This document shows positions 53,571 to 58,309 of a DNA stretch of 64,000 bases, one piece after another. How positions within the stretch are numbered: position 1 is the stretch's first letter; each line of letters begins with the position of its first letter. Under the pieces are notes generated by a model. The model saw nothing but the letters and a program-made list of their open reading frames with translations. It had not been told where the DNA came from and searched no databases. This DNA comes from Undibacterium umbellatum (GTDB lineage Bacteria; Pseudomonadota; Gammaproteobacteria; Burkholderiales; Burkholderiaceae_D): the NCBI RefSeq assembly GCF_014284125.1, contig NZ_JACOFX010000001.1, positions 434,001 through 498,000 on the forward strand, written 5' to 3'. The translations under genes and the position numbers were made by a program.

Positions 53571-54119
53571 TTAAAATAACTCTATGTCACCACTATCCAG
53601 ATGCTTTTGATGCACTGCTTTACGTAACAAATTCTTCAGATCCGCACTTTGCTTTTCCAGGCGTAAGTTAGTTTCGCGCAGCAACGCCGTCAATTCATCA
53701 GATTCACCATCATGTTCAATATCATTACCCAACACACCTAAAGTCCCCAGCACTTCGCGCAAGCCTTCACATCTTTGCAAGGTTCGTGAAATCAATTGAC
53801 TGGTCAAATCCTGAAATTGCAAGCTGGTTACTGCTGAGCTGATATGCTTGGAAATATCTTCCTGTATGACCTTGAGCCGCAACACACTTTCATCTGAAAC
53901 ACCGCCAGAGCTGACGATCAAATTGATTTCCTCCTGCTCACTCGATATTGCTGCATGCAGCGCCATGAAGCTGACACCCAGCTTTTCTATCGCCTCACCC
54001 AGGAGTATCGTTGTTTGCGCAAGGTCGGTCTCAACCTCCAGCAAATGTGCATTTCCATGATCAGACACACCTGATAAAAGTTGCTTAACCTGAGAACCCA
54101 ACAGTTTCTTTTTGGACAT
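53571..54119 (-). CDS. Compact CheZ-like chemotaxis protein
   Basis: This 182-residue, mainly helical protein carries the CheZ catalytic signature SLQFQDLTSQLISRTL, with Asp and Gln at about 104 and 108. The C-terminus is DSGDIELF, a short acidic, hydrophobic end that recalls but does not match the CheY-binding tail of CheZ. It is about 70 residues shorter than the canonical CheZ at 30437. I chose ATG 54119 because AGGA lies eight bases upstream. It sits between motB and the CheY-like gene, so phosphatase activity on that receiver is a reasonable inference. Confidence 0.75.
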   Translation of the reverse strand: MSKKKLLGSQVKQLLSGVSDHGNAHLLEVETDLAQTTILLGEAIEKLGVSFMALHAAISSEQEEINLIVSSGGVSDESVLRLKVIQEDISKHISSAVTSLQFQDLTSQLISRTLQRCEGLREVLGTLGVLGNDIEHDGESDELTALLRETNLRLEKQSADLKNLLRKAVHQKHLDSGDIELF

Positions 54120-54205
54120 CTTAAGCATCCTATCTATGCATTTTGACTTAATGATGCTGCAGTCTTACTTGTAGCTTGCTACTGCCTTGCCTGTCATTAC
54201 TTCTT

Positions 54206-55129
54206 TCAAGGCTTGACTGAAATTTCTGCACTTGAGTCAGGTTGACTTTCGACTTCAATGGTGCCTCCGTCCTGCGATGCAGACTGCTCTGCTTTCTTAT
54301 TCATGACGATAATGCTGATTCTACGATTGATAGGATTCAAAGGATCTTGCTTGTCAAAGAGTACCGAAGAAGAAAGGCCAACGACTCTTAACATCTTGGT
54401 CTCATCCATCCCCCCATAAATCAACTCACGTCTTGATGCATTGGCACGGTCAGCAGAGAGCTCCCAATTGCTGTAGCCGCGTTCGCCACTACCATACGGC
54501 GCTGCATCAGTGTGGCCAGACAAACTGATGCGATTAGGCACATCATTAAGTGCTTTGCCTATCTCATGCAAAATTTCTCTGGTATAGGGCTGTAAATCTG
54601 CCTTGGCAGAGGCAAACATAGGGCGATTTTGTTCATCGACCATTTGAATACGCAAACCATCGGTTGTAATATCCAACAACAATTGTTTCTTGTATTGCTT
54701 CAAGGTAGGATTAGACTCAATCGCCGCTTCAATTTTTGTTTTCAAGCCCTTTAACCTCTCAGCTTCAACTTTGGCCAAAGCAGCCTCTGCAGCCTGGAGA
54801 TTATAAGTTTTCTTCTGTGCGTCAATATCACCTTTGCGATTTTGCCCTTCTCGTGCGCTGAGATCCTTACCACCGCCCTTGATAACACTAGAACTATCGC
54901 CACTGCCATCACCACCAGCCATTGCCACCTTCAGGGGAGTCTGGAAATACTCGGCAATGCCGTTCAAATTACCCTTGGCTGTAGACCCCAGCAACCACAT
55001 CAATAAGAAGAAAGCCATCATCGCAGTGACAAAGTCAGCGTACGCAATCTTCCACGCACCACCATGATGACCACCGGCCACCTTCTTGATGCGTTTGACT
55101 ATAATTGGTCGAAGTTCTTCGCTTGCCAT
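54206..55129 (-). CDS. motB: Flagellar motor stator protein MotB
   Basis: MotB anchors the stator to peptidoglycan and carries the proton-accepting Asp. The protein is about 307 residues. A single helix with the Asp (YADFVTAMMAFFLLMWLLGS) is near residues 30-50. A long helical linker follows, then an OmpA-like domain (ISLSGHTDAAPYGSGERGYS, NWELSADRANASRRELI). I chose ATG 55129, seven bases after AGG. It follows motA closely. Confidence 0.96.
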   Translation of the reverse strand: MASEELRPIIVKRIKKVAGGHHGGAWKIAYADFVTAMMAFFLLMWLLGSTAKGNLNGIAEYFQTPLKVAMAGGDGSGDSSSVIKGGGKDLSAREGQNRKGDIDAQKKTYNLQAAEAALAKVEAERLKGLKTKIEAAIESNPTLKQYKKQLLLDITTDGLRIQMVDEQNRPMFASAKADLQPYTREILHEIGKALNDVPNRISLSGHTDAAPYGSGERGYSNWELSADRANASRRELIYGGMDETKMLRVVGLSSSVLFDKQDPLNPINRRISIIVMNKKAEQSASQDGGTIEVESQPDSSAEISVKP

Positions 55130-55146
55130 CATCAAACCTGTTTTTA

Positions 55147-56007
55147 TTATTTAGATTTTGATTGCTTAATATGATCTTCCAACTCCGAAAAGGTGGGCCT
55201 CTCAGTTGAATATAGCACTTTCCGCCCAAATTCCACTGCCAAAGCTGGGGCATAACCATTCAGACTGGCCAACAAAGTGACCTTGATGCATTGAAAAGTC
55301 TTGGATGACTCATCCAACTGTTGCTCCATCAAACTAGACAAAGGACCGACAAATCCATATGCCAGCAAGATACCCAGAAAGGTACCGACCAAGGCCTTCG
55401 CGATCAGAATCCCCAATTCAGCAGGCGGAATACCAACCGATTCCATCGTGTGCACAACGCCCATCACCGCAGCCACAATCCCAAAAGCAGGCAAGCCATC
55501 ACCAAGCTTGGCGATGAAATGTGCAGGAACTGCACCTTCGTGATGATGCGTTTCCAACTCATTATCCATCAAGTTTTCGATCTGAAAAGCATCCATGTTC
55601 CCTGAGACCATCAGCCGCAAATAATCCGATATGAACTCCATCATATGATGATCATGAACAATTGAAGGATATTTACTGAACAGCGGGCTTTCTTCCGGAC
55701 GTTCGATGTCACCTTCGATGGACATCAGGCCTTCCTTACGCACTTTGGTTAGCACATCAAACAACATGGTCATCAACTCCATGTACAAAGCTTTATTGTA
55801 TTTTGAGCCTTTCAAAACGCCAGGAAGTGCTTTCAATGAAGCCTTCAGAGTTTTTGCATTATTACCCACCAGTGAAGCACCTACCGCGGCGCCACCTATC
55901 ATTAACAATTCCAGTGGCTGAAACAATACAGCAACGTGTCCGCCGGACATGACGAAGCCGCCAAAGACCGAGCCAACCACAATGATATAGCCAACGATAA
56001 CTAACAC
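55147..56007 (-). CDS. motA: Flagellar motor stator protein MotA
   Basis: MotA forms the proton channel with MotB. The 286-residue protein has four membrane helices (about residues 2-20, 30-48, 168-190 and 200-222) and a cytoplasmic loop with the charged residues that touch FliG. GDGLPAFGIVAAVMGVVHTM and ALVGTFLGILLAYGFVGPLS are family segments. The start is GTG at 56007, nine bases after AAGGAG. It is 17 bases upstream of motB. Confidence 0.97.
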   Translation of the reverse strand: MLVIVGYIIVVGSVFGGFVMSGGHVAVLFQPLELLMIGGAAVGASLVGNNAKTLKASLKALPGVLKGSKYNKALYMELMTMLFDVLTKVRKEGLMSIEGDIERPEESPLFSKYPSIVHDHHMMEFISDYLRLMVSGNMDAFQIENLMDNELETHHHEGAVPAHFIAKLGDGLPAFGIVAAVMGVVHTMESVGIPPAELGILIAKALVGTFLGILLAYGFVGPLSSLMEQQLDESSKTFQCIKVTLLASLNGYAPALAVEFGRKVLYSTERPTFSELEDHIKQSKSK

Positions 56008-56125: not shown

Positions 56126-56932
56126 TTATATGCGCCAGATATAGAGAGCGGGGTCATTCGCATTGCTTTTTATAGTTACATCCGCATCAATACCAGGCAC
56201 TTTAAACTCATAACTCATGAACAAGGTATCCGACCGCATCTCAGACCTCACTTTCACCCACAACTCTGGCATGGCCGCTGGCGACAAATACGCGAACACC
56301 ACATCAAATTCAGCGAAATCAAGTCGAAGATAGTCTTTCAAGTAAAAACCAAGTCTGGGCCCCGCCAGTTTCGCCCTGAACCAACTTACTAGCCAGGGAA
56401 AAGGCGCGATTTCGACGCCATAAAATGATTGCTGTGGCCGCAGTTTTGCGAGACTGACGGATACACCACCAAAGCCACTACCTATATCAATGAAACGCAA
56501 ATCATCGCGCGCAGGTAGTTGCTCAAGAATACACGGCAATAAACTGGATTTGGAAGGAAAATATGGAACTTGCGTACGGTAAGTTGACCAAAACAACAAT
56601 ACCATCAGCAAAAAGATGCACAAACTAAGTGCTGGATGCAACTGAAAAACAAGAGAAGCAATAACTGCAAGCGGGAAAATAAATTGTATTAACCACCACC
56701 ACCAACTCATGCCCAACATAATGCTGAGGCCAGCGGCTAAACTAGCGTGAATAGTGAGAAGAAAATAAGGAGACAGTATGCCGCCAAACCACCACTGATC
56801 AGTGACATACAACAAATAAGACAAGCCAAAAGCGAGTAACTGCAATAACAGCGCCAGAAAGACGGGCGAAGAAAAGACTCCATCACCCAATAGGAGTTTG
56901 CCTTTGCGAGTTTTCGATGATACTACCTCCAA
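56126..56932 (-). CDS. Membrane-anchored SAM-dependent methyltransferase between flhDC and motAB
   Basis: This 268-residue protein has three or four membrane helices within residues 20-115, with WWWW at 77-80. A class I SAM-binding domain follows: RFIDIGSGFGGVSVSLA at about 146-162 and FYGVEIAPFPWLVSWFRAK. The segment DVVFAYLSPAAMPELWVKVR resembles FAM173/ATPSCKMT-type lysine methyltransferases. TTG at 56932 is the likely start, with AGGAGGAG just upstream and no better ATG. It lies 15 bases after flhC. A protein-lysine methyltransferase acting on a motor or flagellar component is an inference from context. Confidence 0.75.
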   Translation of the reverse strand: MEVVSSKTRKGKLLLGDGVFSSPVFLALLLQLLAFGLSYLLYVTDQWWFGGILSPYFLLTIHASLAAGLSIMLGMSWWWWLIQFIFPLAVIASLVFQLHPALSLCIFLLMVLLFWSTYRTQVPYFPSKSSLLPCILEQLPARDDLRFIDIGSGFGGVSVSLAKLRPQQSFYGVEIAPFPWLVSWFRAKLAGPRLGFYLKDYLRLDFAEFDVVFAYLSPAAMPELWVKVRSEMRSDTLFMSYEFKVPGIDADVTIKSNANDPALYIWRI

Positions 56933-56947
56933 GGCTCCTCCTGAATT

Positions 56948-57502
56948 TTAAGCCACCATTTCCAGCGAGACCTCAGCATCTTTTGCTTTTTTTGTTTTAC
57001 CTGCCCTTGACGGGACGTGGCACAAACCACATGCATAATCATCATGCAAATCCAGACTATGTGCAACAAAATGCCCACCACATTTGCAACATTTTGCAAA
57101 ACTCAGCATTTTTCCTTCAAAGAAGCGAACCAGAGTCCAGGCACGTGTCAGAGACAATACTGGCTCCTCACCCGCTGGCACTGGAAATTGCTCCAAGTAT
57201 AGGCGATATGCCTTGATGACGGCCTCGATGCCAGTCACTCCCGCATGTTCGCGCAAATATTTATGAATATTCATAAACAGGGAAGAATGAATATTTGGCT
57301 GCCAGGTAACAAACCAGTCAGCAGAAAAAGGCAACATGCCTTTTGGTGGAGATACCCCCTTCAATTCCTTGTATATCTTCAGCAGACGCTCACGCGACAA
57401 GGAAGTCTCAGATTCCAGCAATTGCAATCTGGCACCCAGATTGACCAATTCAATTGCCAGTTGAATTTCGTGAGCTTCGTTTACTACGCTTTTGCTTGCC
57501 AT
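56948..57502 (-). CDS. flhC: Flagellar master regulator subunit FlhC
   Basis: FlhC is the zinc-binding subunit of FlhD4C2, which activates class II flagellar promoters. The protein is about 184 residues. The C-terminal zinc-binding cysteines lie in AKCCKCGGHFVAH and DDYACGLCHVPSRAG. The N-terminal half has EIQLAIELVNLGARLQLLES. I chose ATG 57502 (MASKSVVNE), with GGAG upstream. The gene follows flhD by 38 bases. Confidence 0.96.
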   Translation of the reverse strand: MASKSVVNEAHEIQLAIELVNLGARLQLLESETSLSRERLLKIYKELKGVSPPKGMLPFSADWFVTWQPNIHSSLFMNIHKYLREHAGVTGIEAVIKAYRLYLEQFPVPAGEEPVLSLTRAWTLVRFFEGKMLSFAKCCKCGGHFVAHSLDLHDDYACGLCHVPSRAGKTKKAKDAEVSLEMVA

Positions 57503-57540
57503 GATTTTTCTCCGTCCGCTTCGATTCAATGCCCGACAAA

Positions 57541-57858
57541 TTAATGGATTTCTTCAACTGGCTGACCAGCCATCAAAATCGCAGCATGGGAATGCGCAAG
57601 AGCACGTTCCTTGTTGTAATTTGTCAACATACACAAAATCGAGCTATCTTCAAAGCGGAAGCGCGCCAACATCATATTGGAGCCAGCCAATTTCAAAATC
57701 TGGGCGTTATTCAAACCTTCGATCAGGTCTGCAATTTCCTTACCGATACCCAAACGGAAAATAGCGGTCGCTTTATCAGCGCGAATCATTTGTTGTGCCA
57801 ACATCAAATAACTCAAATTGGCATCCCGAATCTCGGCCATCATATCGTTCTGCGTCAT
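57541..57858 (-). CDS. flhD: Flagellar master regulator subunit FlhD
   Basis: FlhD is the DNA-binding partner of FlhC. The 105-residue protein matches the family over its whole length (IRDANLSYLMLAQQMIRADK, AIFRLGIGKEIADLIEGLNN). ATG at 57858 (MTQNDMM) has an excellent GGAGGGTGAG site. The in-frame extension to 58020 is leader. It is the first gene of the leftward motility block, with a long structured upstream region. Confidence 0.96.
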   Translation of the reverse strand: MTQNDMMAEIRDANLSYLMLAQQMIRADKATAIFRLGIGKEIADLIEGLNNAQILKLAGSNMMLARFRFEDSSILCMLTNYNKERALAHSHAAILMAGQPVEEIH

Positions 57859-58263
57859 TTTCTCACCCTCCAGTTTGTAATCAGCGGCATGTTTGCGTTG
57901 CCAGTGAGATACATTGTGCAGGCTGTGGAAAAGCGGCTGTATAAGCGAGAATCCGTATTTAAACCAAGAATAAAACGAAGGCATGCCGTAGGAAAATATC
58001 CTACAGGCACATTTAGACATCTACAAAACTAAATTTCGTAGAAAACTGATTTTTATTTTTCGGATCAGCAAAATTGGCCAATTCAAAAAACATCAATGAA
58101 AACAATTACTTACGTAAAAAACGAGGTTTTACTTCATCGCCTTACAATCATTAACGGCAGCACTTTAGAAAACTTTAGGGAAAATTTAAAAATATTTTCG
58201 ATTTATTTTCATACCCTCGTAACGGCAACAAATTGTGAAAACTTTAGGGTTGGGATCAAAAAA
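57859..58263. promoter_or_regulatory. flhDC upstream region
   Basis: This 405-base AT-rich region between flhD and the dnaQ terminator has no gene. It carries two copies of a duplicated element (58152-58180 and 58220-58249) and a partial third GAAAACT at 58041-58047. Master-regulator promoters usually integrate many inputs. These repeats are candidate binding sites. Confidence 0.5.
58152..58249. repeat. Duplicated element in the flhDC promoter region
   Basis: TAACGGCA followed after 8-9 bases by GAAAACTTTAGGG occurs at 58152-58180 and again at 58220-58249, 68-69 bases apart. The 13-base core is identical in both copies, and a 7-base part recurs nearer to flhD. Spacing close to six and a half helical turns suggests binding sites on roughly opposite faces of the DNA or separate dimers. 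Confidence 0.55.
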
Positions 58264-58309
58264 AACTCAAAAAAAAATCACCTGTTTGCAACAAGTGATC
58301 TTTTTTGAG
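58264..58309 (-). terminator. Terminator after dnaQ
   Basis: ATCAC-TGTT pairs with AACA-GTGAT around TGC (58276-58298), flanked by an A run and a T run that extend the pairing (ACTC...GAGT). On the minus strand it ends the dnaQ message and protects the flhDC promoter from readthrough. Confidence 0.8.

Follow-up and report, generated by a model that had tools for sequence, protein, structure and literature searches.

A membrane methyltransferase of the aKMT/FAM173 clade linked to flagellar motor genes in Undibacterium umbellatum

Locus layout between flhDC and motAB

The window analyzed here is a 64,000-nucleotide stretch of the Undibacterium umbellatum genome, within which flhD, flhC, a methyltransferase gene, motA, and motB all lie on the minus strand (Table 1). 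The methyltransferase gene begins 15 bp after the end of flhC, and 118 bp separate its own end from motA. A preliminary description of this DNA had placed the gene between flhDC and motAB and had given it a TTG start and its own AGGAGGAG site; the sequence and the Pfam matches of the neighboring genes confirm this layout. The ribosome-binding-like site lies 2 bases 5' of the TTG. Among 12 listed relatives, whose starts were set by alignment or ORF calling, 11 also begin with TTG, and AGGAGG precedes the start in five (L001 to L005, the closest ones).

Table 1. Features of the flhDC-motAB region, in window coordinates. Conservation figures refer to 180 aligned rows, among them the row of the window itself and a small number of duplicate loci.
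Feature	Coordinates	Strand	Basis
flhD	57541..58020	-	Pfam FlhD, E 3.1e-43, over cut-off
flhC	56948..57529	-	Pfam FlhC, E 4.3e-88, over cut-off
AGGAGGAG, ribosome-binding-like site	56935..56942	-	Sequence
Methyltransferase gene, TTG start; 268-aa product with four predicted membrane helices and an aKMT/FAM173-type domain	56126..56932	-	
Four predicted membrane helices, residues 23-120	56573..56866	-	AlphaFold2; coinciding hydropathy peaks
VPYFP, residues 122-126, aligned to VPYVP of aKMT	56555..56569	-	P123 at least 97% conserved
Motif I, DIGSGFGG, residues 149-156, SAM binding	56465..56488	-	D149, G151, G153 at least 97% conserved
Post-I segment, VEIAPFPW, residues 173-180	56393..56416	-	E174 at least 97% conserved
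YLSP, residues 215-218	56279..56290	-	L216, S217, P218 at least 97% conserved
motA	55147..56007	-	Pfam MotA_N, E 3.2e-34, and MotA_ExbB, E 1.7e-11, over cut-off
Codon of MotA Lys112 (SKYP), candidate methylation site	55672..55674	-	Conservation pattern
motB	54206..55135	-	Pfam MotB_plug, E 2e-19, and OmpA, E 1.1e-11, over cut-off

We searched genome contigs and identified 16 relatives at 38-85% aa identity; the nearest named relative is the protein of Undibacterium pigrum, with 85% identity over the protein. Because these relatives exist and D149, E174, and L216-S217-P218 are conserved, the ORF is not a product of chance. The gene has a single match in the whole genome, and a search of plasmid records returned a single weak match, in Agrobacterium. 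Scans of the sequence identified three promoter-like sites (5.5 expected) and six terminator-like sites (2.9 expected), with no terminator-like site in the gap between flhC and the methyltransferase gene or in the gap between that gene and motA. A long terminator-like hairpin (58270-58306) precedes flhD by about 250 bp. A 185-aa minus-strand ORF (53571-54128) separates motB from a cheY-like gene; it has no Pfam match at 1e-5, and we label it, tentatively, "cheZ?" as a putative cheZ. A relative of this ORF occupies the same place in all 15 named loci that cover that side.

Protein anatomy and family placement

Based on a 16-sequence alignment, AlphaFold2 (pLDDT 79, pTM 0.62) predicted membrane helices at residues 23-49, 55-72, 77-95, and 100-120 and a class I methyltransferase domain at residues 131-267, which agrees with the membrane helices and SAM-binding domain proposed from the sequence earlier. 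The segments VEIAPFPWLV and AYLSPAAMPELW, which had been singled out at the same time, are both present in the translated protein; in FAM173 proteins, PWLV likewise follows the post-I acid. Since the N terminus contains K7, R9, K10, and K12 and the number of helices is even, the positive-inside rule predicts that both the N and the C terminus are in the cytoplasm. Residue Y215 is invariant in the 17 rows of alignment A1 and is frequently F in the wider set; set A2 is without L013, which has a masked stretch. The 180 aligned rows preserve motif I, the post-I acid, and L216-S217-P218, and the methyltransferase is therefore probably enzymatically active.

Pfam returned only generic matches to the protein, all below cut-off (Methyltransf_25, E 1.2e-4), and the NCBIfam model for archaeal protein-lysine methyltransferase (NF041081) scored 12.1 bits (E 0.15) against a cut-off of 200 bits. 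We then placed the domain by profile and by fold. When the profile of 17 relatives (A1) was searched against PDB sequences, the first matches were aKMT (5fa8, E 1.4e-13; 5jwj, 3.6e-12) and 5bxy (1.8e-9), and the next family followed at 7.8e-6, a gap of nearly four orders of magnitude. Foldseek listed 5bxy (1.3e-10) and aKMT (5fad, 2.2e-10), with the next family at 1.1e-7. Thus aKMT (aKMT4) of Sulfolobus islandicus (PDB 5FA8/5FAD/5JWJ), and not an unrelated methyltransferase family, is the best profile match and is among the best folds; the match covers the VPYxP segment, motif I, the post-I acid, and the S-x-E-F region. The pre-MTase segment ahead of motif I (VPYxP in aKMT) is present and aligned, with P123 conserved, and the motif I aspartate of the clade is D149, which we take, by motif and numbering, to be the putative counterpart of D94 in FAM173B. 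PMC5828452 reports no significant activity for the D94 motif I mutant of FAM173B.

These results place the domain in the aKMT/FAM173 clade of seven-beta-strand methyltransferases. Its kinship to metazoan FAM173 would run through aKMT and through statements in PMC9006661 and PMC5828452, as opposed to direct sequence comparison: the former describes FAM173B as a distant homologue of archaeal aKMT and assigns aKMT alphaproteobacterial homologues and a broad specificity. Because aKMT is the archaeal relative of FAM173B, the original guess of a FAM173-type lysine methyltransferase holds at the level of the clade, by profile and fold, whereas the metazoan layout with one transmembrane segment is not found here. 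FAM173B (ATPSc-KMT) and FAM173A (ANT-KMT) also combine a membrane segment, a pre-MTase segment, and an MTase domain, and their substrates are membrane proteins, namely, the ATP synthase c subunit (Lys43) and ANT (Lys52), according to PMC9006661 and PMC5828452; however, they are mitochondrial and have one putative transmembrane segment, whereas the protein described here is bacterial and has four predicted helices. The aKMT chain is about 161 residues long and, judging from the PDB chain, lacks a membrane part, in contrast to the four predicted helices here and to the position of the present gene within a cluster of motor genes.

The flagellin lysine methylase FliB also methylates lysines of a flagellar protein (PMC8598068, PMC7181671), but it requires an iron-sulfur cluster and acts on flagellin, whereas the present protein is a class I SAM enzyme tied to stator genes. 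Loss of FliB leaves swimming unaffected. The cysteine-rich iron-sulfur motif given for FliB in PMC8598068 is absent from the 268-aa protein, which has two cysteines, 30 residues apart.

Elsewhere in the phylum, other families encode twelve shorter bacterial relatives (L384-L394, L398; 173-214 aa). Their alignment to A1 covers residues 105-268 with a probability of 99.9%, and aKMT is their first match (E 4.4e-19). By eye, they have one N-terminal hydrophobic helix, as described for FAM173. Neither motA nor flhC has a match within about 5 kb of them, and over this distance only L388 and L393 have a MotB-like match, in each case a weak one of about 31%. In a separate locus, L379, the left neighbor resembles, by eye, a PilZ protein. 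Family f49 has a diverged version whose N terminus is long and hydrophobic (L395-L397); the DNA fetched around it gave no match to motA, motB, or flhC.

The same searches bear on the alternative that the enzyme acts on a substrate within the membrane that is either a lipid or a small molecule. The four predicted membrane helices are consistent with such a function, phosphoethanolamine N-methyltransferases rank directly behind aKMT and 5BXY in both the profile and the fold search, cyclopropane fatty acid synthase appears farther down both lists, and three of the 17 family members match the cyclopropane fatty acid synthase model (best E 8.2e-9). We nevertheless consider a lipid or small-molecule substrate quite improbable, as aKMT, a protein-lysine enzyme, stands at the top in both searches and comes first for the shorter relatives.

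Linkage to motor genes and co-occurrence with flagella

The order flhD-flhC-gene-motA-motB occurs in 15 of 16 named loci, and the sixteenth stops at the gene, so that all 15 loci with a downstream side share it. The best matches in the family, which include the window's own, are likewise linked to motor genes at all 30 loci. In a 399-genome sample of the order, we counted neighborhoods for the best 150 matches (down to E 4e-48, the window's own included) and not for all 196 gene-bearing genomes, with flanks of 1.5 kb for 30 loci and about 4 kb for 120. Of these 150 matches, 117 adjoin flhC or motB: 27 are located between flhC and motA (in L109, motA is 2.5 kb on), two follow flhC with no motA seen next, and 88 follow motB (L182 via an overlong ORF call). 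The other 33 have no flhC or motAB neighbor in the fetched flank, and some of these are at contig ends. Among 20 loci from a search of the class, nine follow motB (one of them, L076, belongs to the order) and 11 do not. The gene is thus genuinely linked to flagellar motor genes, and the conserved co-location in relatives on which the preliminary description depended is found. The linkage is not obligatory, however, since the fetched flank has no motAB or flhC neighbor at 33 of the 150 loci from the order and at 11 of the 20 from the class.

Two arrangements occur, flhC-gene-motA and motB-gene. The placement between flhDC and motAB emphasized at the outset recurs in relatives; elsewhere the gene follows motB without flhDC or is unlinked, as in families f20, f24, and f37, in which all fetched copies are away from motAB. 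Family f210 has motB and the gene on one strand but not adjacent, the gene coming 1.1-1.3 kb after motB in the four genomes fetched (G691 and three more) of five matched; the loci are L083 (genome G691, one of the 11 class loci that do not directly follow motB), L374, and L380-L383. The genes that follow in L083 and L374 resemble, by eye, rsgA and orn. On a tree of the 180 rows, 11 changes are needed among the flhC-side, motB-side, and unlinked states. Five unlinked loci had no common neighbor theme, their neighbors being a histidine kinase, a formyltransferase, a citrate transporter, DJ-1, an endonuclease/phosphatase, and an aminotransferase.

The gene co-occurs with flagella. We scored it as present at E < 1e-25 in the order and E < 1e-50 in the family, limits of our own choice. 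FliG is present in 189 of 196 order genomes with the gene vs 80 of 203 without it (n = 399), and in 99 of 102 vs 25 of 43 in the family sample; both comparisons ignore relatedness. In genus g7, three genomes have the gene and FliG, and four have neither (one of the four by exclusion). In the class, a MotA match passing 1e-50 was found in 16 of 19 gene-bearing genomes vs 13 of 70 others, which are not a random set (62 with weak methyltransferase matches and eight without). Seven gene-bearing genomes of the order are without FliG (G226, G304, G302, G336, G249, G194, and G501): motAB adjoins the gene in G226 and G304, MotA is elsewhere in G302 and G336, and G249 has no MotA match. The motB of G226 is in pieces, split over three ORFs beside the gene (L151, 4770-5752).

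These distributions could also arise if the gene were a passenger inherited by synteny, with a function not tied to the motor. Common descent must account for much of the adjacency, and 80 of 269 FliG-bearing order genomes manage without the gene, which implies that motility does not depend on it everywhere. However, the co-occurrence with FliG persists within one family and within genus g7, and the catalytic motifs are kept in the 180 aligned rows; we therefore regard a passenger gene as very unlikely.

MotA as candidate substrate

Within the order, we compared MotA columns of genomes that carry the gene with those of FliG-bearing genomes that lack it. The MotA sets exclude the window itself (L017 and L018) and L231 (genome G004, with a divergent copy and G112), and paralogues with <45% identity were dropped (three in the order comparison and six in the class comparison). 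Four genomes with divergent copies of the gene (G311, G343, G401, and G510; E 8e-17 to 2e-18) were counted as gene-less, and a 51-genome set was drawn from families in which the gene lies apart from motAB or could not be placed.

Position 112 is lysine in all 151 MotA rows beside the gene (143 distinct sequences) and in all 49 rows with the gene elsewhere or its place unknown; for this column, which was picked post hoc, the order totals are 200 of 200 gene-bearing vs 35 of 58 gene-less rows. Counted over distinct sequences, the KY dipeptide occurs in 143 of 143 beside the gene and 49 of 49 elsewhere vs 29 of 57 gene-less. When the four genomes with divergent copies and two second copies are removed, lysine remains in 29 of 52 gene-less rows. 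When rows were binned by identity, gene-bearing MotA had lysine throughout (200 rows), whereas no bin of gene-less MotA was uniform (58 rows). On a tree limited to the order, K112 tops the losses on gene-less branches among 50 MotA columns invariant in 201 gene-bearing rows, with five losses on gene-less branches, one where the gene changes, and none with the gene; Y113 is next, also with five losses on gene-less branches. With 31% of all losses on gene-less branches, five of five for K112 gives p 0.003, uncorrected for 50 columns. A phylogenetic pairs test of the gene vs K112 was not significant (6 pairs, b differing in 0-2, none opposite).

Among six genomes with a divergent gene copy and a MotA row, the four named above have K112, whereas G272 (Q112; copy E 4.2e-18) and G004 do not. 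No MotB lysine has a K112-like pattern (113 gene-bearing rows, including the window's, and 27 gene-less rows). K112 lies between the two Pfam domains of MotA. In solved MotA chains, the K112 stretch is absent in four of the five alignments listed, which are of low identity; 6ysl keeps most of the stretch, with a gap at 112 in a low-identity alignment. PMC7564593 reports that Arg90 and Glu98 of Salmonella MotA interact with FliG, and, if equal numbering is assumed, the K112 loop also holds these residues. Lys112 is the best single candidate site on MotA, a proposal that we make with much lower confidence than the rest.

We rejected K112 as a universal site: outside the order, lysine is found in six of 16 MotA rows with the gene vs six of 12 without, and the genomes lacking K112 include families with the gene beside motB (f166 and f208). 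That K112 is not kept outside the order is consistent with the alternative that a protein methyltransferase of the same clade acts on another membrane or envelope protein, its gene being in the flagellar cluster for the motile state. The gene also accompanies flagella even away from motAB (f20, f24, and f37), and the five unlinked loci have varied neighbors. The repeated placement beside motAB, in more than one arrangement, instead favors a connection to the stator, and we consider a non-motor protein substrate unlikely.

The reading we prefer, and hold with about even confidence, is that the gene product is a protein methyltransferase anchored in the membrane and that it modifies a portion of the motor exposed to the cytoplasm, most likely MotA; the preliminary description had proposed a membrane or motor protein, perhaps MotA or a switch protein. 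The four helices would hold the enzyme in the inner membrane, with the SAM domain on the cytoplasmic side, where it would most likely methylate a lysine. The enzyme is probably made together with FlhDC and MotAB, and new stator units might be modified as they enter the membrane, with a possible effect on stator assembly or torque; the analogy is with FAM173B modifying the c subunit of ATP synthase. Among the titles and abstract openings listed in a literature search that mostly leaves out subscription journals, none described the methyltransferase or stator methylation.

The stator sets torque and stator exchange. The membrane methyltransferase encoded at this locus is real, conserved, and linked to the motor, and it belongs to the aKMT/FAM173 clade; we infer its lysine chemistry and its substrate. 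The placement of the gene suggests a hypothetical, undescribed chemical tuning of the motor. The clade of this enzyme modifies mitochondrial ion-driven machines, and MotA Lys112 is a named residue to look at first. If the proposal is true, a widespread motor-linked enzyme would add a new layer of motor control.
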